Shown: positions 7,717-44,283 of the stretch, one piece after another
Layout of the letters: each line of letters begins with the position of its first letter
How positions within the stretch are numbered: the stretch's first letter is position 1
DNA from: Halorussus sp. MSC15.2
GTDB taxonomy: Archaea; Halobacteriota; Halobacteria; Halobacteriales; Haladaptataceae
Assembly: GCF_010747475.1 (NCBI RefSeq)
Contig: NZ_VSLZ01000003.1
Span: forward strand, 434,001-498,000
Direction: 5' to 3'
DNA: 64,000 nt
The notes under the pieces: model-generated
Databases searched by the model: none
Told to the model about the DNA's origin: nothing
The model's input: the letters and a program-made list of their open reading frames with translations, nothing else
Translations under genes and position numbers: made by a program

Positions 7717-9054
7717 ATGACCCGGAACGACTCGACCCCAACCGACGCCTCGTCCGACCCGAACTCGACTCGCTCGCGCCGTGCGTTCCTCGGGAGCGCC
7801 TCCGCGCTGGGCGCAATCGCGCTCGCTGGCTGTAGCGGGAGCGGAAGTGAGACGACCACGACGACCGAAGAGACGATGACAGAAGCGACGATGACGACCA
7901 CGGAAACGACGGCTGAAGAGACTACCACTGCGGTCCCGACCAATCCGGACGTCCCGATTCTCAACTACGCGCTGACGCTCGAACACCTCGAAAACGCCTT
8001 CTATCGCGAGGGCCTGAAGGAGTTCGGCGACGACGAGTTGATGCAGGCCGACGCGCTCTCGAAATTCGGCGAAGAAGTCCGGATGGACGTGCCCGGCCAC
8101 CTGCAGACGGTCGCCGGCCACGAGGCCGCCCACGTCGATGCCCTCTCGGCCACCGTCGAGAAGTTAGGCGGTACGCCAGTCGAAGAAGGGGAGTACGACT
8201 TCGGCTACCAGACGCCCTCGGAGTTCCTCGGCGTCGCCAAGGCGCTGGAGAACACCGGCGTCGCCGCCTACGCGGGCGCGGCCCCGAAGGTCGTCAGCAA
8301 CGACGTGCTGGCGGCGGCGGCGGGCATCCACAGCGTGGAGGCTCGCCACGCCAGTTTCCTGAATCTAGTCAGTTCCGAGTCGCCGTTCCCGAACGCGGTC
8401 GATTCGGCGAAGTCGGTGGACGAGGTGCTGGAAATCGCGGGGCAGTTCGTCACCTCGGAGGTCGACCCGAGCGTCTACGAGACCGAACCGGCCGAGGAAC
8501 GGGCGACGCCCGACAGGAAGACCGACGACGACAAGAGCGACGTCAACGTCCTGAACTACGCGTTGACGCTCGAACACCTCGAAAACGCCTTCTACCGCGA
8601 GGGACTGAAGACGTTCAGCGACGAGGAGTTGATGCAGGCCGACGCGCTCTCGACGTTCGGCGAGAAGGTTCGGATGGACGTGCCCGGCCACCTGCAGACG
8701 GTCGGCGACCACGAGGCCGCCCACGTCGATGCCCTCTCGGCTACCGTCGAGAAGCTAGGCGGCACGCCCGTCGAGGAGGCGAAGTACGACTTCGGTTACG
8801 AGACGCCCTCGGAGTTCCTCGGCGTCGCCAAGGCGCTGGAGAACACCGGCGTCGCGGCGTACAAGGGTGCCGCGCCGACCGTCTCCAACGACGACGTGTT
8901 CGCGGCCGCAATCGGGATTCACAGCGTCGAAGCCCGTCACGCCAGCTTCCTGAACGAACTGAACCTCGCGTCGCCGTTCCCGAAGGCCGTGGACGAACCG
9001 AAGACGATGTCCGAGGTGAAAGAAATCGCGGGGCAGTTCATCGTGGCGGAGTGA
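7717..9054 (+). CDS. Tat-exported lipoprotein with two tandem ferritin-like domains
   Basis: The 445-residue product starts with a twin-Arg motif (TRSRRAFLGSASALGAI) and lipobox LAGC, then a Thr/Glu-rich linker, so it is exported folded and lipid-anchored. Two ferritin-like four-helix domains follow (about residues 76-250 and 275-445) that are near copies of each other: both have LNYALTLEHLENAFYREGLK, MQADALS, VRMDVPGHLQTV, HEAAHVDALSATVEKLGGTP, SEFLGVAKALENTGVAAY and GIHSVEARHASFLN. The Glu and His residues in EHLENAFY, HEAAHV and HSVEARH are those expected for a di-iron site in the DUF4439/desiccation-related ferritin-like group. ATG 7717 is preferred; an in-frame ATG at 7684 would put extra residues ahead of the signal. 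A role in oxidative or desiccation stress is only inferred. Confidence 0.88.
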   Translation: MTRNDSTPTDASSDPNSTRSRRAFLGSASALGAIALAGCSGSGSETTTTTEETMTEATMTTTETTAEETTTAVPTNPDVPILNYALTLEHLENAFYREGLKEFGDDELMQADALSKFGEEVRMDVPGHLQTVAGHEAAHVDALSATVEKLGGTPVEEGEYDFGYQTPSEFLGVAKALENTGVAAYAGAAPKVVSNDVLAAAAGIHSVEARHASFLNLVSSESPFPNAVDSAKSVDEVLEIAGQFVTSEVDPSVYETEPAEERATPDRKTDDDKSDVNVLNYALTLEHLENAFYREGLKTFSDEELMQADALSTFGEKVRMDVPGHLQTVGDHEAAHVDALSATVEKLGGTPVEEAKYDFGYETPSEFLGVAKALENTGVAAYKGAAPTVSNDDVFAAAIGIHSVEARHASFLNELNLASPFPKAVDEPKTMSEVKEIAGQFIVAE

Positions 9055-28073: not shown

Positions 28074-30635
28074 ATGATGGGGAATCGACCGAGAACGGGA
28101 CTCGCGACGATAACCGCGGTACTACTCGTGACGACCGCCGTCGCGGGTGCGACAGCAGTCGGTAGCACCTCGCTGGTACAGTCCGCCGAGGCCTCAGCGG
28201 TGCAGTCCGCCGAGAGCATCGACGCACGCATACTGAACTTCAACCAACAGACGGGGTCGTTCGAGGAGGGCGAGACCGTCAGAGCGGAAGTGGAGGTACG
28301 CAACACCGGCGATAGCAGGCACACCTTCTTCGTCGGGTACGGCGTCCGTGGTCCCGACGGGAACTGGTACAACAACGACGACCAGACCGGGACGACGGTG
28401 ACGCTCGACCCGAACGAGCGCGAGTGGGTGACGCTCAGTTGGACCGTCGAGTCGGACGCTCCCTACGGGTGGTACGACGCGAGAACGTCGGTCTGGGCCG
28501 AGAGCGACCGTAACGACCTCCACACTCGACTCGCCGACGAGAGTCGGGGCAGCGCCTTCGAGGTGGTCGAACCCACGAACCAACCCCCGGACGCCGAAAT
28601 ACAGTGTACGGACACCGAGGTGGCGGTCGGCGACACGGTGACCTGCACGGCGGACCGTTCGAGCGACACCGACGGGTCGGTCACGTCCTACCAGTGGGAG
28701 TTCGGAGGACAGGACACCGACTACGGTGAGACCGCGTCCCACGCCTTCGACCGGAGCGGTCTCTACTCGGTCGAACTGACGGTGACCGACGACGATGGCG
28801 CGACCGACAGGACCTCCGTGACGGTCAGCGTCGAAGACACGACCGACCCGCCGTCGGCGTCGCTGAGTTGTACTCCCACCGAAGTGACGGTAGGCGAGCG
28901 CGTCGAGTGCACCGCGTCGGGGTCGAGCGACCCCAACGGCGACATCTCGACGTTCGACTGGACCTTCGGCGACGGAACGAGCGAATCCGGCGAGTACGTC
29001 GGTCACACCTTCGACGAGGCGGGGACCTACACCGTCGAACTCGACGTGACGGACGAGACCGGCGCGACCGACACTGCCACGGGGACGATACGCGTCGAGA
29101 GCGCCGCCGAACCGCCGTCGGCGTCGCTGAGTTGTACTCCCACCCGAGTGACCGCGGGTGAGACCGTCGAGTGCACCGCGTCGGGGTCGAGCGACCCCAA
29201 CGGCGACATCTCGACGTTCGACTGGACCTTCGGCGACGGAACCGGCGACTCCGGGACGTACGCCAGTCACGCCTTCGACGAGGCGGGGACCTACACCGTC
29301 GAACTCGACGTAGCAGACGAGACGGGCGCGACCGATACCGTCTCCGAGACGATTCGCGTCGAAGCGGCGGCCGAGCCGCCGTCGGCCCGAATCTCGTGCA
29401 GTCCCACCGAGGTGACGGTGGGCGAGACCGTCGAGTGCACCGCGTCTGGGTCGAGCGACCCCAACGGCGACATCTCGACGTTCGAATGGCGTTTCGAGGA
29501 CGGGACCACCGGTTACGGCGAGCGCGTCACCCACAGTTTCGACGAACCGGGAACGTACAGCGTCGAACTAGACCTCACCGACGAGACCGACCGCACGGCC
29601 AGCGCGACCGCCGAGATTTCCGTGACGGAGAAGAACGAGAAGCCGAACGCGCAGATTTCCTACTCACCGGCGCACCTCGAACGCGGCGACACGGTGACGT
29701 TCGACGCGAGCGACTCGACGGACCCCGACGGGAGCGTCAGCGAGTACAAGTGGGTGTTCGACGGCACCGTGAAACGCGGGGAGACGGTCCAGTACAGCGT
29801 CGAGAACACCGGCGACTACACCGTCGAGCTCGTGGTGATGGACGGAGACGGCGGGTCGGACACCGCGGCCCAGTCGCTCTCGGTCCGGCGTCGGCCCACC
29901 GCCGACTTCGATTTCACGCCGAAACAGCCCAGTTCGGGACAGAGCGTCTCATTCACAGCGGAGCAGGACGCGCGCGTCGAGCGGTACGAGTGGGACTTCG
30001 ACGGCGACGGTGAGTACGACGCTCGCGGTCGGAAGGTGACCCACGACTTCGACTCGCCCGGCAAGTACTCGGTGCAACTCCACGTCGTCGGGAAGGGCGA
30101 CATGGAGAACACGGCGACGAAGATAGTCACCGTCCAGCAGAACGCCTACTTCCAATTGACCGCCGACCGCGCGACGGTCGAGACCGGGAACGGGACCGCG
30201 GTCGTGATGTTCAGCGTCTCGAACCACGTCAACGACCGTCCACTACAAGTCAAACTCGAACTCGACCTGCCCGACGAGGGCGTCTCGATACAGAGCGTCG
30301 CGGGCGAGTCGCCGGTGAGTCGGAAGGCTACCGACTTCTTCACGGTCGAGGCGGGCGCGGACGAGAGCTTCAGGGTCCGCCTGCAGGTGAACGAACCCGG
30401 GACGTACGACATCGGCGGAAAGGCGGTCTACTACTTCGGCGAGCAGGAGGACCGCAGGAGTCGCAGCGTCGGTCCCATCACCGTGCGGACGAAAGGCGCG
30501 GTACAGGACGCCGGCAACAGCGAGGCGAAGGCCGACGACCTCGGCGGGCAAGGGAGCACGCCCGGATTCGGTCCGGGCGTCACGGTCGCCGGACTGGTCG
30601 TCGCGGTCTGGGTCGCGGCGAAGCGACGTTCGTAG
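28074..30635 (+). CDS. Surface protein with PKD repeats and PGF-CTERM anchor
   Basis: An 853-residue secreted protein. Sec signal (TITAVLLVTTAVAGATAVGS), then a CARDB-like domain to about residue 165, then six PKD domains (immunoglobulin-like) from about 170 to 690, of which three carry the same CTPTEV-type start and GDISTFDWTFGDGT core, a further beta domain (DRATVETGNGTAVVMFSVSN), and a C-terminal PGF-CTERM tail: PGFGPGVTVAGLVVAVWVAA with basic end KRRS. The tail is cut and replaced by a lipid by archaeosortase A, so the protein is exposed on the cell surface. No catalytic site; the PKD repeats probably act as spacers or adhesion modules. Start ATG 28074 (a second ATG follows at once). Confidence 0.9.
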   Translation: MMGNRPRTGLATITAVLLVTTAVAGATAVGSTSLVQSAEASAVQSAESIDARILNFNQQTGSFEEGETVRAEVEVRNTGDSRHTFFVGYGVRGPDGNWYNNDDQTGTTVTLDPNEREWVTLSWTVESDAPYGWYDARTSVWAESDRNDLHTRLADESRGSAFEVVEPTNQPPDAEIQCTDTEVAVGDTVTCTADRSSDTDGSVTSYQWEFGGQDTDYGETASHAFDRSGLYSVELTVTDDDGATDRTSVTVSVEDTTDPPSASLSCTPTEVTVGERVECTASGSSDPNGDISTFDWTFGDGTSESGEYVGHTFDEAGTYTVELDVTDETGATDTATGTIRVESAAEPPSASLSCTPTRVTAGETVECTASGSSDPNGDISTFDWTFGDGTGDSGTYASHAFDEAGTYTVELDVADETGATDTVSETIRVEAAAEPPSARISCSPTEVTVGETVECTASGSSDPNGDISTFEWRFEDGTTGYGERVTHSFDEPGTYSVELDLTDETDRTASATAEISVTEKNEKPNAQISYSPAHLERGDTVTFDASDSTDPDGSVSEYKWVFDGTVKRGETVQYSVENTGDYTVELVVMDGDGGSDTAAQSLSVRRRPTADFDFTPKQPSSGQSVSFTAEQDARVERYEWDFDGDGEYDARGRKVTHDFDSPGKYSVQLHVVGKGDMENTATKIVTVQQNAYFQLTADRATVETGNGTAVVMFSVSNHVNDRPLQVKLELDLPDEGVSIQSVAGESPVSRKATDFFTVEAGADESFRVRLQVNEPGTYDIGGKAVYYFGEQEDRRSRSVGPITVRTKGAVQDAGNSEAKADDLGGQGSTPGFGPGVTVAGLVVAVWVAAKRRS
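28861..29652 (+). repeat. 264-bp tandem PKD repeats
   Basis: Three units of 264 bp (88 codons) begin at 28861, 29125 and 29389. The first two are almost identical over long stretches (for example CGCTGAGTTGTACTCCCACC is common to both); the third has drifted (CTCGTGCAGTCCCACC). They code for PKD domains of the surface protein. Recent tandem duplication or gene conversion explains this. Confidence 0.8.
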
Positions 30636-30764: not shown

Positions 30765-32009
30765 ATGCAGAATCTCAGGAAGGCAGTCGTCTGTTCGCTC
30801 GTGGCCGTCCTCGTCGCCAGTGTTTCGGTTGCCCCGGTAACCGGGGCGGCGTCGGCCGCGTCCGGTTCCGGCGGCGTTACGGTACACGCGTCGCCCGACG
30901 CGACGGACGTCGCGACGGGGGAGACGACGACCACCGCAGTCGTGGCGTCGAACGTCACCGCAGGGGTCGGCGCGTACAACCTCACGGTCGCGCTCTCGAA
31001 CGCCTCCGTCGCTCGAATCGCGGACTACTCGCTGGTCGGCGGCCCGGAGGGGGCCAGCGTAGAGACGAACGCGGACAACTCGTCGCTCCGTGTCACGGCA
31101 TACGGCGTCGATACGGACCAGAACGGGACCGTGGAACTCGTGCGACTCGAACTGGCCGGCGAGACCGTCGGGGAGTCTGACGTGGACATCGACGTTCGCG
31201 TTATCGGTGACGAGGCGGGCAACGAGTACGAACCCGTCTCGGTCTCCGCAGGCACCCTCTCGGTGTCGGAGCGACCGCGGACCACCACCACGACGAGCGA
31301 CGGCGGTAGCGGCCGCGGTGGGGGCGGCGGCGCGAACGTGCCACCACCGCCGGTCCAACTCTCGACCGAACGGACCGACGGCGGCGTCCGACTCGACGTC
31401 CGGAACGCGCGACCCGGCGAGAGCGCGGGTGCTTCGGTCGCCGGTCTCGCCGCGGGCGACGCGACACTCGAACGCGTGGACCTCGAGTTCGTGGGCGAGA
31501 CCGCCCACGTGGTGTTCGAACTCACGGGCGCCGACGGGACTCCCGACGGAATCACCCGCCCGCCGGGCGACGCAGTCCTCGGCCACGTCGCGGTCGCGAC
31601 TCGGTACGCCTCGGCGTCGGTCGTCGGTCGGGCGACGTACCGATTCGGCGTCTCGGCGGACGCGTTGCCGGGAGGCGCGACGCTCGACGACGTGACCGTC
31701 TATCGCTACGCGGACGGGTCGTGGACCGAGGTCCGCGTGGTGCGCGATTCGAACGCGTTCACCGCGACGACCGACCGACTCTCGCAGTTCGCCGTCGTGG
31801 TCGACCGGAGTAGCGACAACCCGGTGACGAGTACCGCGGCGACGGAGACGACCGGCGAGGGGTCGGCCGCGACCGGGACGACCGGCGAGGAGGCGGGCAA
31901 GACCGCGAACACCGGCGGAGACGCCGAAGGTGGGGTCCCCGGGTTCGGGGGCGGCGTCACGCTCGGAGCGCTGGTCGGCGGCGTCCTGTTCGCACTAGGT
32001 CGGAGGTAG
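30765..32009 (+). CDS. PGF-CTERM surface protein with N-terminal cohesin-like domain
   Basis: A 414-residue surface protein. Sec signal (VVCSLVAVLVASVSVAPVTG), then a domain at about residues 38-165 with the cohesin pattern: HASPDATDVATGETTTTAVV, VGAYNLTVALSNASVARI and a final strand EYEPVSVSAGTLSV. After it comes a Thr/Ser/Gly/Pro linker (TTTTTSDGGSGRGGGGG then PPPPVQ), a PGF-pre-PGF domain (YRYADGSWTEV, RLSQFAVVV), a Thr/Gly stalk and PGF-CTERM tail (VPGFGGGVTLGALVGGVLFA, RR end) for archaeosortase A anchoring. Cohesin binds dockerin, and the next gene ends in a dockerin. ATG 30765 is chosen as start of the signal; 30684 is an upstream alternative. The cohesin call is by pattern only. Confidence 0.85.
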   Translation: MQNLRKAVVCSLVAVLVASVSVAPVTGAASAASGSGGVTVHASPDATDVATGETTTTAVVASNVTAGVGAYNLTVALSNASVARIADYSLVGGPEGASVETNADNSSLRVTAYGVDTDQNGTVELVRLELAGETVGESDVDIDVRVIGDEAGNEYEPVSVSAGTLSVSERPRTTTTTSDGGSGRGGGGGANVPPPPVQLSTERTDGGVRLDVRNARPGESAGASVAGLAAGDATLERVDLEFVGETAHVVFELTGADGTPDGITRPPGDAVLGHVAVATRYASASVVGRATYRFGVSADALPGGATLDDVTVYRYADGSWTEVRVVRDSNAFTATTDRLSQFAVVVDRSSDNPVTSTAATETTGEGSAATGTTGEEAGKTANTGGDAEGGVPGFGGGVTLGALVGGVLFALGRR

Positions 32010-32151
32010 CGGTTCCGCGTTCTCGGGAGACGGGGTGAATCGCTTCGAGCCGGGGTAACGATGCATTTAATACCCCTTGTTGAAACAAATCTATACCGAC
32101 AGGTCAGAAGTATATCCTATATTCTGGTGACGTATTCAGGTAAATACCGGA

Positions 32152-32159
32152 CATATACT
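32152..32159 (+). promoter_or_regulatory. TATA box of the giant beta-helix gene
   Basis: CATATACT at 32152-32159, about 27 nt before the ATG at 32183, in an A+T-rich gap. Leaderless transcription is likely. Confidence 0.6.
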
Positions 32160-32182
32160 GACAAATAAGAACAACGTAGAAC

Positions 32183-35100
32183 ATGGTCTCGAAATCACGA
32201 AGACGGAAGAGCGTACTTCTTATCGGAATCGTCCTCGTCTCGGTAGCCTCGGCATCGACGCCCACCGCGGCGCTTCCGCAGTCGAGCGGACTCGACGCGC
32301 CGAGCGTAGACGTCCCCGAGGTCCTCGAAGGGGTCTCGTTCTCGCTGACGACGGCCACCATCGTCGTCGATTCCGACGGGTCGGGGGACTATCGAACGAT
32401 TCAGGCCGCCGTCGATAACGCGAGCGCCGGCGACACGGTCCGGATAGAACCGGGGGTGTACGCCGAATCGGTGCGAATCTCGAAGCCCCTCGACGTCCGC
32501 GCACCGAACGGCGCGACGCTCGACGGGTCGTCGCTGAGCAGTTCCGCGGACGGGGTTCGCCTCTACAACGACGCCAAGGTCTCTATCTCGGGAATCACGG
32601 TTACGGGGTACGACAACGCGATACTCGCGAACGGCGTCGGCCGGAACGTCTCTCTCTCCGACGTCACGCTGAAACAGAATCGTCGGGGTCTCTACGTGGA
32701 CGACACGTACAGTCGCTGGGAAATCCACGACAGTGTCGTCAAGAACAACAGTCTCGTCGCTATCCAGACCAGCAGTTCCTCGCTGGGAAACGCGACGGCT
32801 AACTACTGGGGCCGGTCCGACGGCCCGACGAAGGGGCAATGCCGGGGCGACGTGGACTGCGGCTACTTCCTCTCCAGTCCGTCCGATTCGGTGTCCGTGC
32901 CCGCGGACCGAACCGGGACCTACGTCGTGGCCAACGACGGGTCGAAACCCTACGCCACGATACAGGACGCGATTCAGGCCGCTCCGTCCCGCGCGACCGT
33001 GGAAGTTCGACCCGGCACCTACACCGAATCGGTGCAGGTCAGGCAACCGCTCTCGCTCGTCGCACCCGACGGCGCGACCCTCAACGGGTCGGCTCGGAGG
33101 TCGAGCGCCGACGGGGTCCGCCTCTACAACGACGCCAACGTCACCGTCTCCGGGTTCACCGTCGAAGGATGGGACGAGGGCGTCCGCGCCGACAACGTCG
33201 ATAGCGAGTTCCTGATAGAGAACGTCGTCCTCCGGCAGAATCAGGACGGTCTCTACGTCGAAGAGACGTACAACAGGTGGGACATCCAGCATAGCGAGAT
33301 TTACAATAACTCCCACACCGGCGTCCGTAGCGCCGACCACCTCGGCGACGCCACCGAGAACTACTGGGGCCGGGCCGACGGTCCCACGAGAGCGCAGTGC
33401 CGCGGCGACGTGGACTGCGGCTACTTCCTGTCGTCGCCCACCGACTCCGTCTCGGTCCCGTCGAACCGAACGGGGACCTACGTCGTGGCGAACGACGGCT
33501 CGAAGCCCTACGCCACGATGCAGGACGCGATTCAGGCCGCCCCGTCCCACGCCACCGTCGAAGTCCGGCCCGGTACTTACACCGAGTCGGTGCAGGTCAA
33601 ACAACCGCTCTCGCTCGTGGCACCCGACGGCGCGACCCTCAACGGGTCGGCTCGGAGGTCGAGCGCCGACGGGGTTCGCCTTTACAACGACGCCAACGTC
33701 ACCGTCTCCGGATTCACCGTCGAACGCTGGGACGACGGCATCCGTGCCGACAACGTGAACACTCGATTCCTCGTCGAGAACGTCGTCCTCCGGCAGAATC
33801 AGGACGGTCTCTACGTCGAAGAGACGTACAATCGCTGGGACATCCAGCACAGCGAGATTTACAACAACTCCAACGCCGGCGTCCGTAGCGCCGACCACCT
33901 CGGCGACGCCACCCAAAATTACTGGGGTCAGTCCGACGGCCCGACCCGCGGGCAGTGCCGCGGCGAGGCGGACTGCGGCTACTTCCTGTCGTCGCCCACC
34001 GACTCCGTCTCGGTCCCGTCGAACCGAACGGGGACCTACGTCGTGGCGAACGACGGCTCGAAGCCCTACGCCACGGTACAGGACGCCATCCGGGCCGCAC
34101 CCGCTCGTGCGACTGTCGAAGTTCGACCCGGCACGTATTCGGAATCCGTTCGACTGAGCAAACCGCTCTCGCTCGTCGCGCCCGACGGCGCGACCCTGAA
34201 CGGGTCCACCCGGAACTCCGGTGTTGACGGAATCAGGCTCTACAACGACGCAAACGTCACCGTCTCCGGGTTCACGGTCGAAGGATGGGACCACGGCATC
34301 GACGCCTACAACGTCGATAGTGGGTTCCTGATAGAGAACGTCGTCCTCCGGCAGAACCGAGACGGTCTCTACGTGGACGACACGTACAACGGGTGGGATA
34401 TCCAACACAGCGAGATTTACAACAACTCCAACGCCGGCGTCCGCGGCGTCTCCTCACAACTCGGTGACGTCACGAGAACTACTGGGGCCAGTCCGACGGG
34501 CCGCTCCGAGCACAGTGCCGCGGCGACGTGGACTGCGGCTACTTCCTGTCCAGTCCAACCGATTCGGTCACAGTTCCGTCCGACCGGACGGGAACCTACG
34601 TCGTGGCGAACGACGGAACCGAACCGTACGCCACGATTCAGGACGCGATTCGGGCCGCCCCGAGCGGTGAGACGGTCACCGTTCGCGGCGGCACGTACTT
34701 GGAGTCGATTCGAATCAGCAAGCCGCTCACGCTGACCGCTCCGCAAGGGGCGACGTTGGATGGCTCGTCCCGCAACTCGGGGGCAGATGGGATTCGCCTC
34801 TACAACGACGCAAACGTCACCGTCTCCGGGTTCACCGTCGAAGGATGGGACCACGGCATCGACGCCTACAACGTCGATACCCCGTTCGTCGTCGAGGACG
34901 TCGTCCTCCGGCAGAATCGAGACGGTCTCTACGTGGACGACACGTACAACGGGTGGACGTCCAGCACAGCGAGATTTACAACAACTCCAACGCCGGCGTC
35001 CGCGGCGTCTCCTCACAACTCGGTGACGCCACCGAGAACTACTGGGGTCAGTCCGACGGTCCGACCCGCGGGCAGTGCCGCGGCGACGTGGACTGCGGCT

Positions 35101-38100
35101 ACTTCCTGTCGTCGCCCACCGACTCCGTCTCGGTTCCGGCCAATCGCTCCGGGACGTACGTCGTGGCGAACGACGGCTCGAAGCCCTACGCCACGATTCA
35201 GGACGCGGTTCGAGCCGCGCCCGCTCGCGCGACCGTCGAGGTCCGGCCCGGCACGTATTCGGAGTCGGTCCGACTGAGCAAACCCCTCTCGTTCGTCGCG
35301 CCCGACGGCGCGACCCTGAACGGGTCCACCCGCAACTCCGGCGCTGACGGAATCAGACTGTACAACGACGCCAACGTCACCGTCTCCGGGTTCACCGTCG
35401 AAGGGTGGGACCACGGCATCGACGCCTACAACGTCGATACCCCGTTCGTCGTCGAGAACGTCGTCCTCCGACAGAACCGAGATGGACTCTACGTGGACGA
35501 CAACTACAATCGCTGGGACATCCAACACAGCGAGATTTACAACAACTCCAACGCCGGCGTCCGCGGCGTCTCCTCGCAGGTCGGCGACGCCACCGAGAAC
35601 TACTGGGGCCGGGCCGACGGTCCCACGGGAGCGCAGTGCCGCGGCGACGCGGACTGCGGCTACTTCCGCTCGACGCCGACAGAAACGGTCTCCGTTCCGG
35701 CCAATCGCTCCGGAACGTACGTCGTGGCCAACGACGGGACCCAACCGTACGCCACGATACAGGACGCCATCCGGGCCGCACCCGCTCGCGCGACCGTGGA
35801 AGTTCGACCCGGCACGTACTCCGAGTCGGTCCGACTGAGCAAACCGCTCTCGCTCGTCGCGCCCGACGGCGCGACCCTGAACGGGTCCACCCGCAACTCG
35901 GGTGCAGATGGGATTCGACTCTACAACGACGCGAACGTCACCGTCTCCGGATTCACCGTGGAATCGTGGGACCACGGCATCGACGCCTACAACGTCGATA
36001 GCGAGTTCCTGATAGAGAACGTCGTCCTCCGGCAGAACCGCGACGGTCTCTACGTGAACGACAACTACAATCGCTGGGACATCCAGCACAGCGAGATTTA
36101 CGACAACTCCAACGCCGGCGTCCGCAGCGTCTCCTCGCAGGTCGGCGACGCCACCGAGAACTACTGGGGGCAGTCCGACGGCCCGCTCCGAGCACAGTGC
36201 CGCGGCGACGTGGACTGCGGCTACTTCCTGTCGAGTCCCGACGGGTCGGTCGACGTTCCGCTAGTCCGGTCTCACGTCCTCGTCGTGGCGAACGACGGGT
36301 CGGCACCGTACGCCACGATACAGGACGCGGTCCGTGCCGCGAAGGCGGGCGACACCGTCGAGGTTCGGCCCGGCGTCTACCGGGAACGCGTCAGGATTCA
36401 GAAGGACATCAACCTGACCGCGCCGCGAGGGGCGCAGCTCAACGGTTCGACGCTCAACGACGGAGCAGACGGGATACACCTCTCGAACGGCGGGGGCGCG
36501 TCCATCTCCGGATTCGTCGTCAGGGAGTTCGACGTGGGCGTTCGCGCCTCCAGCACCGACCGAGCGGTGGCCATCGGCAACTCCCACCTCGTGAACAACA
36601 GCGAGGCCCTTCGGGTGCGCTACGCGAACGCCCCGGTGGAGATTCACGACAGTATGGTCGCGAACAACCGCAACTCGGGAATCTACGCCTATCGGTCCCC
36701 GACGGTCGATGCGACCCGGAACTACTGGGGCCAAATCGGCGGGCCGGTCTCCGGCCAGTGCGACTCGGCGGCCGACTGTTCGAATCCCCTCTCCGGCGTT
36801 CCGGAGGTCCGCGGCGACGAGATATCCTACACGTCGCCCAGCGAGTTGGAGTTCAACGTCGGGATGCGAACGCCGGTCGCCAACCGGAGCCTGCGACTCA
36901 GGAGCGCCGGCGTCACGACGACCGGCGTCGAAATCGCGAAGGCCGAGTGGAGCTTCGGCGACGGGGCGACCGCCAGAGGACTCGAAGTCGCCCACGCCTA
37001 CGACTCGCCCGGCGTCTACACCGTCACCCACTCGGTCGTGACCGAGGACGGCCGGGGCTACTCCGTCACCCGACAGATAAAGGTCGGCGAGGAACCCGAG
37101 GAGTTCGACGTCGTCTCGGTCACGCCCCACCTGTCGGGCCACCCCCGGAAAGACGTCGTCGTCATCGAGGGCCTGCCGCTGGACCTGAGCTATCGCGCCA
37201 CGGTCAGCCAACCGTCGAACACCGCAGAAGTCCGGTTCAGACTGAACAACTCGACGTACGTCGATTCGGACGGGAGCGACGGGTACACCTTCCCCGTGAA
37301 CACCAGCAACGTCACGTCCGACGAGACGCTGGTCGCCACCGCAGTCCACACCAACGGCACGACCGCGAGTCGGGCGCTTCGCGTCGGCCACGTCTCGACG
37401 CCGGGGTGGTTCGAGGCGATGACCGTCTCGGTGACGCGCCCGACCCACGGCTACCTGATACTGTCGTCCTCGAAGCCAGCCAGCCTCTCGAACAAGATAC
37501 CGAACAAGTTCCCGTTCAAGGACGAGGTGAAGATGCCGGGCGCGGGCGAGAACCAGCAGACCAGCGCCGCGGTGACCGTCACCATCAAAGTAGACCTGAC
37601 GACGACCGAGGCGGAGGCGTCGGTCGGCGGGGGAGCGTCGTACGACCTCAAGGTCGTCAACGTCACCGGGAACGCCACCGGCAAGGCGTTCGTCGACCTC
37701 GAAGAGGGCAACCTCACGAAGGGCGAACTCGAACTCAAGGCGACCGCGACGGCGGAGTATCCCCCGCCGCCGACGGGCGTCCCGAGTCCGCCGATAGGTC
37801 CGGTTCCGCCGGGAGCGGTGAGCCTCTACCCCATCTTCAGCGCGGAACTGAAGGTGACGACGACCTTCGACGAGAAGGACACCGCGGGGTCGGGCGACAA
37901 CGTCTCGTTCGAGTTCGAGAAGGGCGAGGTCTCACCCAAACTCGGGGCGAAACAGGAACTCGGGAAGAAGTGGAACGAGTTCGCGCTCGTCCTCGGTCTC
38001 GAAGAGGAGATAGTGACGAAAGCCCCGTTACCCGGACTGAGTCCGATAGACGGCACGGTGGCCGGGCAGTTGTACGCCCGCGCGCAGGCCTACATGTTCA

Positions 38101-40940
38101 CGCAGGAGGCCTACTACCCGTCCGGGAAGAAAGAGAAGTTCACCTACGACTTCGAACTGCTACAGGAGGAGACGACCTTGAGCGCCGACGGAACGACCTC
38201 GGACGGCGGTTCGGCCGACGCCACGGAGACGCGGAGTTCCGGCGATACGTCGTGGAGCGTCCGGGAGCGAACCGGCGACCGGCCCCCGAAGCCGACGGTC
38301 ACCGCTGGCGACGGGAGTGAACAGACCCTGACCCACCGGATGGGGTTCGTCGGGAGCAGTTTCAACTCGGCGGGAGCGACGCCCACGAGAATCGCCGAGA
38401 CCGGCGTCGTCACCAACAACACCGTCGCCGACGAGTCGCCCGCCGTCGCTCGAATCGGAGACGCCCACACCGTCGCGTGGGGCCACCAGTCGGCCGAGAA
38501 GTCCGCGCTCAACGGTCGCGACATACGGGTGTCACGGATGGACGACAGTGGGATTACGTCGCCGTCCCCGGTCACCGACGACTCGTGGAGCGACCACGAC
38601 CCCGCGCTCACCGGGTCGGCCCGAAACGGGTCGCTCGTCGCGTTCACTACCTTCGACCGGACGTTCGAGAACGTCAGCGGGCCGTCCGACGTGTACGCCC
38701 ACGGCGAAATCCGAATCGCGACGTCCGACGGGTCCGGGTGGGACGCGCCGCAGTTCGTGACCGACGATGCCGACTTCGACTTCGCGCCCGCTGTCGCCCA
38801 GCGCGGTGACGAGTGGGTCGTCGCGTGGACCGAGGACGCCGACGAGAACCTGACGACGTGGCGCGACCAGTCGGTCCAGTACGCGCGGTACAACGGGACG
38901 CTGGGACCGGTCCAGACCGTCGAGACGGCGCGCGCGCCCGACGTGTCCGCGACCGCCGACGGGTTCCGCGTCGGCTACCTGTCGATGAACGACAGTTCCG
39001 TCGAGGGGTCGGTGACGGTCCGAACCGTGAGCGCTCGGGACGGACTCCCCGAGCAGTCCGAGCGCGCGATTTCCGTCGGTCAGTTCGGCGGCATGGACGT
39101 CAGCGCGACCCACGTCGGCGTCGTCGATACCGGAGCGAACGACACGCACCTGCGAATCGCCAACAGCACAGACGTTCGGTCGGTCGGGCTGAAGTCGAAC
39201 GTATCGACCCCGCAGACGGTCGAACTAACCGAGCGGGACGGCGACCTGCTCGTGGACTTCCGGGCGTACCCCGCCGCGAGCGACGTCGCGGCCGCGTACT
39301 ACAAGCCGCGAATCGGCGGGCGGTGGCTCCCGGCGCGCAAGTACGCCGACGGGTCCCACCGGAACCTCACGTTCTGGCAGGGAGACGCGGCCCCCAGCAG
39401 TGACGGCTTCGTGTCGGTGTTCGCCGGGCAGGACCTCACTTCCGACCAGCAACCCGACGTCTACGCGTTCAAGCACCGGTTCCACCCCGACCTGACGGTG
39501 AACGCGTCGGTCGCCGCCGAGAACGTCAGCGCCGGAACGCAGGTGGACGTCCGGTACGCGGTGCGCAACACCGGCGACGCTCCGGCCGACGCGTCCGACC
39601 TGCTCGTGAAGTCCGGCGACGGACACCTGAAGTCGGTCTCGCTCGGGTCGATACCGGCGGGCGAGACCGCCTCGGGCACGGCGACCGTGACGGTCGATAG
39701 CACCGGGACGCTGTCGGTCGTCGCCGACGCCGGGAGCGCGGTTCCCGAACTCGACGAGCGGAACAACGACGACCGGGCGCTCGCGCTGGACCCCGACCTG
39801 AACGTCACGGGGATGACGGCCGCACGGGCGAACGACACGATAACCGTCTCCGCCACCGTGACCAACCCGTCCGGCGTCCGGGCGACCGACGTGGCGTATC
39901 GGTTGGGCAACGGGCCGGACGTCCAGCGATACGGGACGGTGTCGCTGCTCGAACCGAACGCGACCCGGACGGTCAACGTCTCGCTGCCGGTCGCCGAGAC
40001 CGACCCCGCGTACACGACCCGGTTCGAGGTCACCCCGAACGAGACGGGCGTCGAGGGCGACGCCTCCGACGACGCGGCGTCGCGGTACCTGTTCCGACCC
40101 GACCTCGCGCTCAGCGACGGCCAGATAGGCTACTACCGGACGGACGGCGTCGTCCGCGCGTCGATGCTCGTCTCCAACGAGGGACTGGCGAACGCGACCG
40201 CGGAAATCGAGGTCCGGAACGCGTCCACCGGTAGTCTCGTGGCCTCGCGGAACGTCACCGTCGCGGGCAGCGACTCCTCCCAGACGACGGCGTTCACGGA
40301 GGCGACCGTCGGCCTGCCCGGCGTCTCGTCCGGTTCCGGTGTCGAAATTCTAATCACCGCGCCCGGAGAGACCGCACTCTCGGACAACGTCGTCGTGGAC
40401 GAAGTCGAACTGAACACCACACTCGTCCCGCCGAGCGGGGAAATCAGCGCGAGTCGGTCGTCCGTGACCGTCAACGAGTCCGTCCAGTTCACGATTGCCA
40501 ACGTGACCGACGCCGACGGTCGGGCGGTTCACACGCAGTGGCGGGTCGCGAACACCTCCGCCGCGGACACCGGTTCGCTCGACTGGACCGGCCGGAGTCC
40601 GGGGAACCACACCGTCGAACTCGTGGTGGTGGACGACGACGGCGTCACCACGATAGTCACCCGGACCGTGCTCGTCCGTCCGGAGCGCCCCGACGTGGTC
40701 CTCGGTTCGCAGGCCCCGCGCGACCTCGACCGCGACGGGCGCTTCCGCGACGTTGACGGCGACGGGACGCTCGCCCGGAGCGACGTGCGAACGTTCTTCG
40801 AGTCCTACCGGAACAGTTCGGTTCGGGACAACCAGTTCGCGTTCGACTTCAACCGGGACGACGAGCGCATCGACATCCTCGACGTGCAGGCGCTCCACGC
40901 CGACAACGAGGAGTCGAGCGACGGGTCGGACGAGCAGTAA
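32183..40940 (+). CDS. Giant secreted beta-helix/dockerin protein, frame-broken twice
   Basis: About 2,919 residues when two one-base gaps are restored. Order: Sec signal (VLLIGIVLVSVASASTPTAA), eight repeats of 186-187 residues with the parallel beta-helix/NosD pattern (YATIQDAI, VRPGTY, VAPDGATLNGS, VTVSGFTVEGWD, NYWG-SDGP, CRGDVDCGYFLSSP), a PKD domain (EWSFGDGATARGLEVAHAYD), a long beta-rich region with coiled stretches, a propeller-like set of repeats (PAVARIGDAHTVAWG, PALTGSARNGSLVAF, PAVAQRGDEWVVAW), several CARDB domains, and a C-terminal dockerin. Frame breaks: loss of one C near 34473 and one G near 34956. The 561-bp period is 560 in just those two units, which supports single-base loss. 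Likely extracellular, binding glycans or surfaces and docked through the dockerin to the cohesin protein encoded upstream. Confidence 0.85.
32360..36802 (+). repeat. Eight tandem repeats of about 561 bp
   Basis: The codons for YVVANDGS (or IVVDSDGS in the first) start at 32360, 32921, 33479, 34037, 34597, 35157, 35718 and 36279. Steps are 561, 558, 558, 560, 560, 561 and 561 bp. Units two to seven are nearly identical at DNA level; the first and last are older. The 558-bp units have SADHLGDA where the others have GVSSQ-GDA (one codon fewer). Such homogeneous repeats imply recent unequal recombination or gene conversion, and they are also prone to assembly error. Confidence 0.9.
40722..40913 (+). 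other. Dockerin-type domain at the end of the giant protein
   Basis: The last 65 or so codons hold two EF-hand-like calcium loops: DLDRDGRFRDVDGDGTLARS followed by DVRTFFESYR, and FDFNRDDERIDILDVQALHA. The second loop ends with the DVQAL helix of type I dockerins. In bacterial cellulosomes such domains dock enzymes onto cohesins; here a cohesin-like domain is encoded by the neighbour at 30765. Confidence 0.75.
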
Positions 40941-41025: not shown

Positions 41026-44000
41026 TCAGTCGTACAACTGTCGCGTGACCGCCCACAGGAGGACGACGAGCGCGACCCAGAGGACGCCACCGGCGGCACC
41101 GACCGCGAGCAGGCCGTCGGTGCCCAGTAGCCCGAATCCGACCCAGACGGCGACGCCCGCCGCCGCGAAGCCGTTGATGGTCCTCCCGCTGACGGGCACG
41201 CCCGCGCTCCGGAACGTGAGGACCGTCCCGTACGCGCCGAGGACCAGCGCGACGCCGTAGAGCGCGAGACCGAGCAGTCCACCGAACGTCGAGAAGACGG
41301 TCGCCGAGGGGAGGAGACCCCCGTCTGCGTCCCCGGTGGCGTTCGGCGTCGCGGTCCCGTTCGCTCCTCCGACGCCGCTCGGCGCGTCGGACGTGCCGCG
41401 GGTCTCGTTCGTCGCCGCGGCCATCTTGCGCGGTCGGACGACGACCGTCGCGGTCGCGGGGTCTGCGTTCTCCACGCCCGCGTCGTCCGTCACGTTCACC
41501 GAGACCGTGTAGTTGCCCGGGGTCTCGAACGAGAGGGTGACGTTCGGCGACGACGAGACGGTGAGGTTCGGCGACGTGACGTTCTCGCGCCGGTCCGCGA
41601 CCGAGAACCGGTAGGACGCGACGCGACCGTCGCGGTCGCCGGACTCCGCGGCGGAGACGCGGACGCGCTCGCCGACCCTCGCGGGGTTCGGCGAGACGCT
41701 GACGTTCGCCGCCGGGCGGTACCGGGGCGAGCGGAGCGCAGCGTCGGCGACCGGGAGGAAGTCCACCCAGCCGCGTCGGGTGACGATGCGGTCGCCGGTT
41801 CCCTCCGGGTGAATCGAGGAGTGTGTGGGACCGTCGGGCGCGCCCCAGTAGTTGCGCTCGGCGACGACAGTCCGGGTCGTGTTGACGAGCAGTCGCGTGG
41901 TCGTGTTCACGTCCACGAGCGTGCTGACGTTCACCATCATACCGTGAGGGTGGCCGTACACGTCGTTCTCTCGGACGACGACCCGCGAACGGCGGTCGGC
42001 GTCCTTGGGGAGCGTGATGCCTGTGGGGAGGTCCTCGGAGAGCGACCGGACCGTGAGCGCCGTGTCGTCGCTCTCCCAGACGTCGCCCGCAGCGCCCGGC
42101 CGGAGGACGACCGTGTAACTATCGCCGACTCTCCCCCGGAGTTCACCCTCGACCTGCGGGTCGTCGAGCAGTACCGCGAGTTTCTCGTCCACGTCACCGG
42201 TCCTGAAAATCGCGCCCGCGTCGCCGCCCTCCACGACGATGCCCGTTCCCGGTCGGTAGCCGGAGAGTTCGACCGGCGCACCGACGCCGTACGTGTTGTG
42301 GGCTATCGTGTTGTGGTGGACGCGCGCGCCCAGCGAACCGGCGATGCGAACTCCGTACGCGTTCGCGGTCACGACGTTGCGGGTCAGGTCGATTCGCCCG
42401 GCGTGGGTCAACTCGTTGGCCACGTTCAGGCCGACGCCCGCGTTGTCGAAGACGCGGTTCGCCGCGACCGTGAGGTTGTGAGCCACGACACTCGTCCGGA
42501 CCGAGAAGCCGTGGCCGCGGTTCTCCGCGAAGCGATTGTCCGCGACTCGACCGTGACGGACCTGCCGTCCGACGAGTTCGAATCCCGTTCCGTCGTTGTT
42601 CGAGACGGTGTTGTTCGCGACTGTCGTGCGGGCGAGGCGTCTCGCTTCGAGTCGGACGCCGCCGTCTCCGTTTCGGGTGACGTCGTTCCCGCGAACGGTG
42701 ACTCTCGTCAGTCGCGTGGACGGGGCCACGACCGAGATACCGTGGCCGTCGTTCCGCGAGAGTTCGTTGTCGGCCAGCGCGAGCGAGACGTGTTGGACGT
42801 AGTAGGCCGCGACGTGTCGGACGCGAACGCCGGTCTCGCTCTCGGTGACGGAGTTGTTCGCCACCCGAACCCCGTCGACGTTCCGATGGCGTGCGAACAG
42901 GGCGATGCCAGCGTCGGCGTCGGTAATTCGGTTTCCGCGAAGCTTCGAGTCGGCGGCGCGCTGTGCGGCGATGCGAACGCCGTCCGCGCCGCGGCCGACC
43001 GAAGCGACGTGGTTCCCGCCGACGGCGACCGACTCGACTCGTCGCCCGCGGAGGCTGACGGCCGACCCGCCGACGTTCGTGACGGAGTTGTTCGCCACAC
43101 GGAAGTCGTGTGCCGCGTCGGCGGCGACGAACACGGCCTGTTCGCCGAGAGAGTCGAAGGTCGAACCGGTTATCGAGAACCGACTCGCGCGACTCGTCTC
43201 GGCGTTCCCGCGGTCGGCGCGCCGGTGCCGGTCGCCGGAGGAACTGAGGTCGAGGGGCAGCGTCGTCTCCGCCGTCTGCTCGACGCCGTTCCGCAGGAGG
43301 CTGACTTCGACGGGGTAGGTTCCGTACGTTCGCGGGTTGACCGCGTCGTCGTAGACAGCGACCACCGTGGCGTCGGCCGGAATCGTGACCGAGCGGTTCA
43401 GTCGTATCTCGTAGGCGTTGCCCGTCCCGTTGCCGAGACCGGCCATCAGCGGTTTGAGCGACCGGTCCACCGTTCCGTTGCCGTTGAGGTCGAGACCGAA
43501 CGTCGAGAACGAATCCGCCTCGACCTCGCGGACCCCGCCGTGACCGCGGTACGCGACCCGGAGAGCGTCCACGGTCGTGTCCGCACCGAGCGTGAACGTC
43601 GCCCGGTGGGTGGCCCGCTTCCCGGTCGCACTCCAGTTCGAGACGACGGCGGCGTCGCTGACCGTTCCCATGCCGGGCGTGACGGCGACGCCGCGCCGAC
43701 CGACGTCGGTGAACGTCGAGCGTTCGACCGACAGCCTCGGCGTGCGCGGGGTGTCCTCGACCAGAATCCCGTTTCGACTCACGTTCCGGACGGTGACGTC
43801 GGCGACCGAGACGCGGCCCGCCGCGCTGCTCACGGTGAGTCCGTTCTCGGCCCTCTCGACGGTCGCGTGGGAGAGCGAGAGGTGCGAGTCCGAGCGCCCC
43901 TCGTACCGAATCGACGCCCACCGAACGCGGTCGGGGGCCTCGGACGCGGTCGTGAACGCGATGGGTTCGGCCCGCGTACCGTCGGCGCTGAGATTCCCTT

Positions 44001-44283
44001 CGACCCGAATCGTGATTGCCTCCGCGAGTTGGACGGTCGTTCCGGGTTCGATGCGGAGCGTCGCCCCCTCCTCGACGGTCACGTCCGCCGCGACTCGGTA
44101 CGGGCCGTCCTCGGCGGACCACGTCGTGTCGTCGGTCACGTCGCGTTCGACGTACGTCACGTCGTCCGTTCCGCCCGCCGAGACGACGCCTGCCGGAGCG
44201 CCGACAGAAGCGAGACCGGCCGCGGTAACTCCGAGACCGAACACGAGGACGACGGCGAGTATCCGAGTCCGAGCGCGGTTCAC
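41026..44283 (-). CDS. Secreted beta-helix protein with PKD domain and multi-helix membrane end
   Basis: A 1,085-residue protein from GTG 44283. Sec signal (ILAVVLVFGLGVTAAGLASV), then NosD-like right-handed parallel beta-helix from about residue 60 to 790, with many N-x-(S/T) sites and NxxVTN/NDVTRNG-type coils, one NYWGAPDGPTH motif, a PKD-like domain (PNPARVGERVRVSAAESGDR ... FETPGNYTVSVNVTDD), and three to four transmembrane helices at the end (ATVFSTFGGLLGLALYGVAL, GFAAAGVAVWVGFGLLG, GGVLWVALVVLLWAV). It thus is membrane-held, unlike the neighbours with PGF-CTERM tails. It converges on the giant gene with 85 bp between them. Role unknown; beta-helices of this kind bind or cut polysaccharide, but no catalytic residues stand out. 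Confidence 0.88.
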   Translation of the reverse strand: MNRARTRILAVVLVFGLGVTAAGLASVGAPAGVVSAGGTDDVTYVERDVTDDTTWSAEDGPYRVAADVTVEEGATLRIEPGTTVQLAEAITIRVEGNLSADGTRAEPIAFTTASEAPDRVRWASIRYEGRSDSHLSLSHATVERAENGLTVSSAAGRVSVADVTVRNVSRNGILVEDTPRTPRLSVERSTFTDVGRRGVAVTPGMGTVSDAAVVSNWSATGKRATHRATFTLGADTTVDALRVAYRGHGGVREVEADSFSTFGLDLNGNGTVDRSLKPLMAGLGNGTGNAYEIRLNRSVTIPADATVVAVYDDAVNPRTYGTYPVEVSLLRNGVEQTAETTLPLDLSSSGDRHRRADRGNAETSRASRFSITGSTFDSLGEQAVFVAADAAHDFRVANNSVTNVGGSAVSLRGRRVESVAVGGNHVASVGRGADGVRIAAQRAADSKLRGNRITDADAGIALFARHRNVDGVRVANNSVTESETGVRVRHVAAYYVQHVSLALADNELSRNDGHGISVVAPSTRLTRVTVRGNDVTRNGDGGVRLEARRLARTTVANNTVSNNDGTGFELVGRQVRHGRVADNRFAENRGHGFSVRTSVVAHNLTVAANRVFDNAGVGLNVANELTHAGRIDLTRNVVTANAYGVRIAGSLGARVHHNTIAHNTYGVGAPVELSGYRPGTGIVVEGGDAGAIFRTGDVDEKLAVLLDDPQVEGELRGRVGDSYTVVLRPGAAGDVWESDDTALTVRSLSEDLPTGITLPKDADRRSRVVVRENDVYGHPHGMMVNVSTLVDVNTTTRLLVNTTRTVVAERNYWGAPDGPTHSSIHPEGTGDRIVTRRGWVDFLPVADAALRSPRYRPAANVSVSPNPARVGERVRVSAAESGDRDGRVASYRFSVADRRENVTSPNLTVSSSPNVTLSFETPGNYTVSVNVTDDAGVENADPATATVVVRPRKMAAATNETRGTSDAPSGVGGANGTATPNATGDADGGLLPSATVFSTFGGLLGLALYGVALVLGAYGTVLTFRSAGVPVSGRTINGFAAAGVAVWVGFGLLGTDGLLAVGAAGGVLWVALVVLLWAVTRQLYD

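Follow-up and report, generated by a model that had tools for sequence, protein, structure and literature searches.

How might a haloarchaeon keep on its surface a giant secreted protein that carries no anchor? This question is raised by two neighbouring genes in a 64,000-nucleotide stretch of Halorussus sp. MSC15.2 (contig NZ_VSLZ01000003.1 of assembly GCF_010747475.1, positions 434,001 to 498,000 of the forward strand), which is called the window below and whose own numbering is used throughout. The first gene, cohA (30765..32009, + strand), is an open reading frame (ORF) for a secreted, probably membrane-anchored single-cohesin protein of 414 amino acids (aa); the second (32183-40940, + strand), referred to here as the giant, ends in a dockerin-type module. 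Our analysis makes it likely that CohA and the giant form a dedicated surface docking pair. The proposal is built on computed results, i.e. a cohesin fold, a dockerin-type sequence, a unique one-to-one inventory, pairing of the two modules across haloarchaea and purifying selection.

In the proposed arrangement CohA would be secreted, probably processed by an archaeosortase and fixed in the membrane by its PGF-CTERM tail, so that its single cohesin would be displayed on a flexible linker. The giant, a secreted and unanchored protein of beta-helix repeats with PKD and CARDB domains, would then be kept on the cell by its C-terminal dockerin binding the CohA cohesin, an interaction that would very likely use calcium. 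Binding, calcium dependence and anchoring are expected here by analogy with the Archaeoglobus fulgidus Coh76/Doc75 proteins and with PGF-CTERM/ArtA biology, and the giant itself may serve in adhesion or in contact with polysaccharides.

The cohesin of CohA and the dockerin-type module of the giant

The N-terminal domain of CohA (residues 35-171; 30867..31277, +) was modeled blind with AlphaFold2 from an alignment that joined the window domain to 29 relatives, all taken from named genomes, giving a predicted local distance difference test score (pLDDT) of 93.4 and a predicted template modeling (TM) score of 0.85. When this model was compared with the Protein Data Bank (PDB) using Foldseek, ranks 1-34 were all cohesins (best E 1.9e-9, TM-score up to 0.79), with the A. 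fulgidus cohesin 2xdh at rank 6 (E 2.4e-8), and the first match that was not a cohesin, the CLIPPER adhesin domain, came after these 34. Profile-profile comparison with hhalign linked the CohA family to haloarchaeal domains that match PF00963, Pfam's cohesin model (P 93%, E 3.4e-7, 107 columns), and those domains in turn matched PDB cohesins in a profile search (E 1.2e-12); the control comparison of the CohA family with a PKD profile gave P 1% and E 0.056. Because of the Foldseek ranking, the hhalign link and the PKD control, we conclude from the predicted structure that the CohA domain is a divergent cohesin. The preliminary description of this locus had put forward the same fold and proposed AlphaFold as the check on it, and solved cohesins did rank above all other Ig-like folds.

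Direct searches were less revealing. Pfam and NCBIfam scans of the full-length proteins identified neither module, PF00963 and PF00404 searches of the window genome returned nothing above cut-off, and a PDB profile search with the cohesin alignment found no cohesin, the link coming only via structure and profile-profile comparison. PF00963 matches neither the window domain nor any of 30 relatives, and some of the relatives show weak Ig-like matches (Big_2, best 1e-4). These last results would suit a reading that sees in the CohA domain a generic beta-sandwich, Ig-like or carbohydrate-binding, with no more than a resemblance to cohesins, in the EF-hand module of the giant a calcium-stabilised cap, and in the adjacency of the two genes the clustering of surface genes, several of which do lie side by side within the window. 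We consider this very improbable, since cohesins fill ranks 1-34, profile comparison shows a link with Pfam cohesins but none with PKD, and genome-wide co-occurrence, with exactly one of each module here, is not expected for unrelated modules. A generic Ig-like identity for the CohA N-terminus was therefore rejected, cohesins having come first in Foldseek and the PKD control having remained unlinked.

The translation of CohA contains a signal peptide, and after the cohesin come a Thr/Gly/Pro-rich linker (31278..31365, +), a weak PGF-pre-PGF-like domain (31500..31799, +; TIGR04213 E 0.0054, 16.7 bits with a cut-off of 28) and a PGF-CTERM-like anchor (31932..32006, +; TIGR04126) in which a PGF motif, a hydrophobic stretch and Arg-Arg follow one another in the tail GGVPGFGGGVTLGALVGGVLFALGRR. 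The GETTTTAVV and GAYNLTVALSN stretches that had been picked out earlier as cohesin-like were located in the translation, as was the linker. As for the further claim that the product is PGF-CTERM-anchored, the tail is PGF-CTERM-like and the archaeosortase ArtA was found in the window genome (TIGR04125, E 2.6e-96), but the tail scores 13.3 bits, below the TIGR04126 cut-off of 24.5 (the orthologs in genomes G002, the closest relative, and G015, another Halorussus, score 23.2 and 30.0). Processing of PGF-CTERM proteins by ArtA is established biology. Both orthologs occupy the equivalent position, the one from G002 being 91% identical and the one from G015 63% identical over the cohesin region.

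The giant's last ORF stops at 40940 and closes with FRDVDGDG...FDFNRDDERIDILDVQAL, and its final 70 residues form a dockerin-type module (40695..40907, +) that scores 108.5 bits with our A2 profile. PF00404 gives this module only 15.1 bits (E 0.028, under the cut-off of 22.9), while it matches all seven of the first dockerin family members (best 3.6e-12), and in the PDB the dockerins 1daq and 2mte were matched at about 6e-6. The family consensus reads PxDPDGDGxYEDVNGDGxFDIxDVQALF...AFDFNGDGxVDVVDVQALF. AlphaFold2 predicted a loop-helix, short linker helices and a second loop-helix (pLDDT 89.8), for which the top nine and 18 of the 22 Foldseek matches were dockerins or dockerin-bearing chains and not calmodulins, none of them significant. 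In sequence and alignment the first calcium loop, DVDGDGTLARSD (40749..40784, +), follows the canonical 12-residue pattern; the second, DFNRDDERIDILD (40845..40883, +), has 13 residues, one of them inserted, and no Gly at position 6. Calcium binding at the second loop is uncertain because of this insertion. The earlier proposal was that the giant ends in a dockerin with two EF-hand-like loops; a dockerin-type module with a canonical first loop is seen, and the second loop is not canonical.

Frame breaks in the giant gene

The giant had been described as a single gene of 8.8 kb, which did not hold: 32183-40940 is not one open frame but is split into three ORFs by two single-base losses, both within near-identical repeats of ~560 bp. 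The first ORF (32183..34735, +) encodes a signal peptide and right-handed beta-helix repeats (PF13229, PF05048 and PF01095 at 1e-25 to 1e-26) and follows the gene's frame until ~34473, where CACC has become CAC (34471..34476, +; GTCAC-GAG compared with GCCACCGAG of homologous repeat units). The middle ORF (34528..35277, +) covers one repeat unit in another frame. At ~34956 TGGGAC has become TGGAC (34951..34962, +; GGGTGG-ACGTCC compared with GGGTGGGATATCC in the sister unit), and the last ORF (34845..40940, +) holds further beta-helix repeats, a PKD domain (36906..37064, +; PF18911), a CARDB domain (39486..39767, +; PF07705) and the C-terminal dockerin. It shows no C-terminal hydrophobic anchor, in agreement with the earlier view that the giant has no anchor of its own.

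If the breaks were true mutations, the pair could be real by descent and yet dead in this strain, the dockerin product not being made or not being secreted and the locus decaying. This would fit the loss of one base at each of two places in the window copy, which leaves the dockerin-bearing ORF without a signal peptide, and the finding that the giant ortholog of G002 has a different break, a 2-base insertion (L014, about 8470-8560). We nevertheless regard it as unlikely. Both breaks fall in near-identical repeats, a setting in which errors of assembly are to be expected; no other stop interrupts the 8.8 kb, and the G015 gene is an intact single ORF of 2940 aa. In addition, the ratio of nonsynonymous to synonymous substitution rates (dN/dS) relative to G002 is 0.25-0.28 for the parts of the giant downstream of the window breaks, as low as for cohA (0.35), and for the last ORF it is 0.28 on both sides of the G002 break site. 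Because of these low ratios we conclude, from the sequence comparison, that selection acted on the downstream reading frame up to a very recent time or continues to act on it. The breaks would be either assembly errors, which are plausible within such repeats, or very recent events, and the docking pair remains our preferred reading of the locus.

On either side of the pair lie further surface protein genes that hold no cohesin or dockerin of the CohA or giant type. The one at 28074-30635 (+) encodes a multi-PKD protein with a PGF-CTERM above cut-off, and the one at 41026-44283 (-) a protein of the beta-helix/PKD kind that has a membrane region at its C-terminus.

Pairing across the Halobacteria

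We scanned 194 Halobacteria genomes with the cohesin and dockerin profiles; the dockerin profile had been built from dockerins near cohesins, which may under-count other kinds of dockerin and does not force adjacency elsewhere in a genome. In the window genome a CohA-type cohesin occurs once (E 2.4e-35), as does a dockerin of the giant's type (E 1.1e-25, with the runner-up at 0.47), and these are neighbours. Across all genomes the cohesin profile matched in 84 and the dockerin profile in 87, with both present in 81, neither in 104 and only one in nine (cohesin in three, dockerin in six); Fisher's test gives P 4e-43 for this distribution, a value that is overstated as related genomes are not independent. 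By genus (n=65), cohesins occurred in 35 and dockerins in 36. When the best 150 listed matches per profile were compared, 2 kb or less separated 112 of 139 cohesins from a dockerin, and 53 of the 57 genomes with both modules listed had a pair within 10 kb, compared with 2.2 expected at random. Co-occurrence and adjacency of these sequences across the class fit a docking pair.

A working cohesin and a working dockerin need not be each other's main partners. CohA could chiefly bind another protein, or the dockerin of the giant could bind a cohesin on a neighbouring cell, i.e. could serve adhesion and not tethering. One observation that favours this comes from G015, where the cohesin gene has a dockerin gene on either side, one for the giant ortholog and one for a subtilase, and one cohesin may therefore serve several partners. 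We think it improbable for the window, since no other dockerin of the giant's type was found in its genome, which makes the giant the only candidate partner within the cell. The G015 subtilase (L015:11317-15240, -), whose dockerin is C-terminal and whose gene adjoins the cohA ortholog, is a possible second client of the anchor.

Several points weigh against CohA and the giant being a docking pair. The evidence for the pair comes from sequences and single-domain models. The best Foldseek match of the dockerin, a very small domain, has an E of only 2.1, and the one-residue insertion that makes its second loop non-canonical recurs in the G015 ortholog. The sub-threshold tail of CohA, the lack of PF00963 matches, the breaks in the giants of the window and of G002, and the way in which the dockerin profile was built count on the same side.

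Other genera repeat the simple form found in the window, in which a giant dockerin protein has as its neighbour a short protein with one cohesin and a transmembrane segment at the C-terminus. Cassettes occur at named loci of Halogranum, Haloarcula, Halobellus, Halorubrum and Halorussus marinus; these contain a large malectin/PKD protein, which in several cases includes a dockerin, together with one or two cohesin+dockerin proteins and either a multi-cohesin protein or a short protein that has a single cohesin and is anchored at its C-terminus. Multi-cohesin proteins accompanied by cohesin+dockerin adaptors recur in the relatives. At four loci (L069:7000-13604, L070:7353-17071, L072:6988-13115 and L073:4835-11409) a short transmembrane-anchored single-cohesin gene is divergent from a giant of 1736-2901 aa with a dockerin near its N-terminus; the N-terminal parts of these giants are similar, their C-termini differ and small ORFs follow, an arrangement that resembles a polymorphic exoprotein system.

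Two genomes carried the modules in far larger numbers. In G019, probably the genome of Halococcoides cellulosivorans HArcel1, the profile scan found 70 dockerins and nine cohesins of the window kinds (L062-L065, L094-L113). The dockerin proteins scanned there are mostly plant-polysaccharide enzymes, i.e. glycoside hydrolases (GH) of families GH5, GH9 with the carbohydrate-binding module CBM3, GH10, GH11, GH16, GH26, GH43 and GH3, and a carbohydrate esterase, and a three-cohesin protein adjoins a cohesin protein whose C-terminus carries a transmembrane segment; the multi-cohesin protein there is encoded at L064:8937-10946. From their sequences these parts are a candidate archaeal cellulosome. 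The second genome, G120, has 47 dockerins and nine cohesins, with at least five cohesins in one ORF; this scaffoldin-like ORF (G120:C23, L066:1-8218) runs off the contig end and stands beside dockerin genes and a 209-aa cohesin protein with a transmembrane tail. On balance we lean slightly towards regarding the window pair as the simplest version of a haloarchaeal system that escapes Pfam's cohesin model and that attains the scale of an archaeal cellulosome in cellulose degraders, e.g. Halococcoides.

In the literature searched we found no use of the phrases archaeal cellulosome or haloarchaeal cellulosome. A 2023 comparative study of haloarchaeal cellulose degradation mentions neither 'dockerin' nor 'cohesin' (PMC10267330), and haloarchaeal dockerins have been treated as substrate-binding (PMC10963439, PMC13260240). 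Our results suggest that they are scaffold plugs rather than substrate-binding modules.

Docking of this kind is itself already known, since archaeal cohesin-dockerin binding has been described in A. fulgidus. As far as our search extended, what is new is a haloarchaeal cohesin clade missed by Pfam's model, the systematic pairing of this clade with a single type of dockerin, and its scaffold-like cassettes. The window locus offers a clean, testable one-to-one docking pair in a class of organisms that is genetically workable, and the new profile exposes a cohesin clade that standard annotation has overlooked. If the predicted binding holds, haloarchaea would share a common means by which surface proteins that lack an anchor are retained on the cell in high salt, and cellulosome-like complexes may occur beyond bacteria and fungi.

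Comparison with known systems

Cohesins and dockerins have been known in archaea since A. fulgidus and are numerous in anaerobic methanotrophic archaea (ANME; PMC9012536, PMC5244752), as the preliminary description had rightly stated. The closest precedent is the non-cellulosomal pair of A. fulgidus (ORF2376 Coh76 and ORF2375 Doc75; 2xdh), the products of adjacent genes, which bind strongly according to a statement in PMC9705933 citing Voronov-Goldman 2011. The window pair resembles it in coming from an archaeon, in the cohesin fold, and in carrying the two modules on two different proteins that are neighbours, with no cellulases, the A. fulgidus ORFs being consecutively numbered. It differs in that PDB profile searches detected no direct sequence similarity, in joining a PGF-CTERM-like anchored protein to a giant beta-helix protein, and in the conserved D-D-DG-Y-E-D motif that haloarchaeal dockerins carry ahead of the first loop; furthermore, binding is reported for the A. 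fulgidus pair and proposed for the window pair.

With the type I system of bacterial cellulosomes the window pair shares the cohesin fold, a dockerin-type module with two loops and the combination of a probably anchored cohesin with an unanchored dockerin partner, and relatives of the window have multi-cohesin and adaptor proteins. In contrast to that system, the window has one cohesin and one dockerin, its cohesin does not match PF00963, the second dockerin loop is non-canonical and the partner carries no glycoside hydrolase. The beta-helix repeats of the window dockerin protein do show pectinesterase-like similarity, but otherwise no glycoside hydrolase was recognised in it. A cellulosome would have a multi-cohesin scaffoldin and several glycoside hydrolases bearing dockerins, whereas the genome has a single cohesin and a single dockerin of the type, and the window pair was therefore rejected as a cellulosome.

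The surface proteins of ANME, which include multi-cohesin proteins with dockerins and for which S-layer links have been proposed (PMC9012536), are likewise archaeal surface cohesin/dockerin proteins. They were found by standard domain libraries, whereas Pfam's cohesin model does not match the window cohesin. The PF00963-type cohesins of haloarchaea, e.g. those of a cluster in genome G059, come from the same class of organisms and are related to the window cohesin at the profile level; they are mostly encoded by other genes at other loci, and the proteins of the G059 cluster end in a different, canonical dockerin, PGDVDGDGxVTSLDATKTQQYIAG. That cluster (L092, G059:C1:469000-488000) includes at least five cohesins in one 1260-aa frame, and several of its ORFs have the canonical dockerin at their C-terminus. 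Haloarchaea thus seem to hold two kinds of cohesin-dockerin system.

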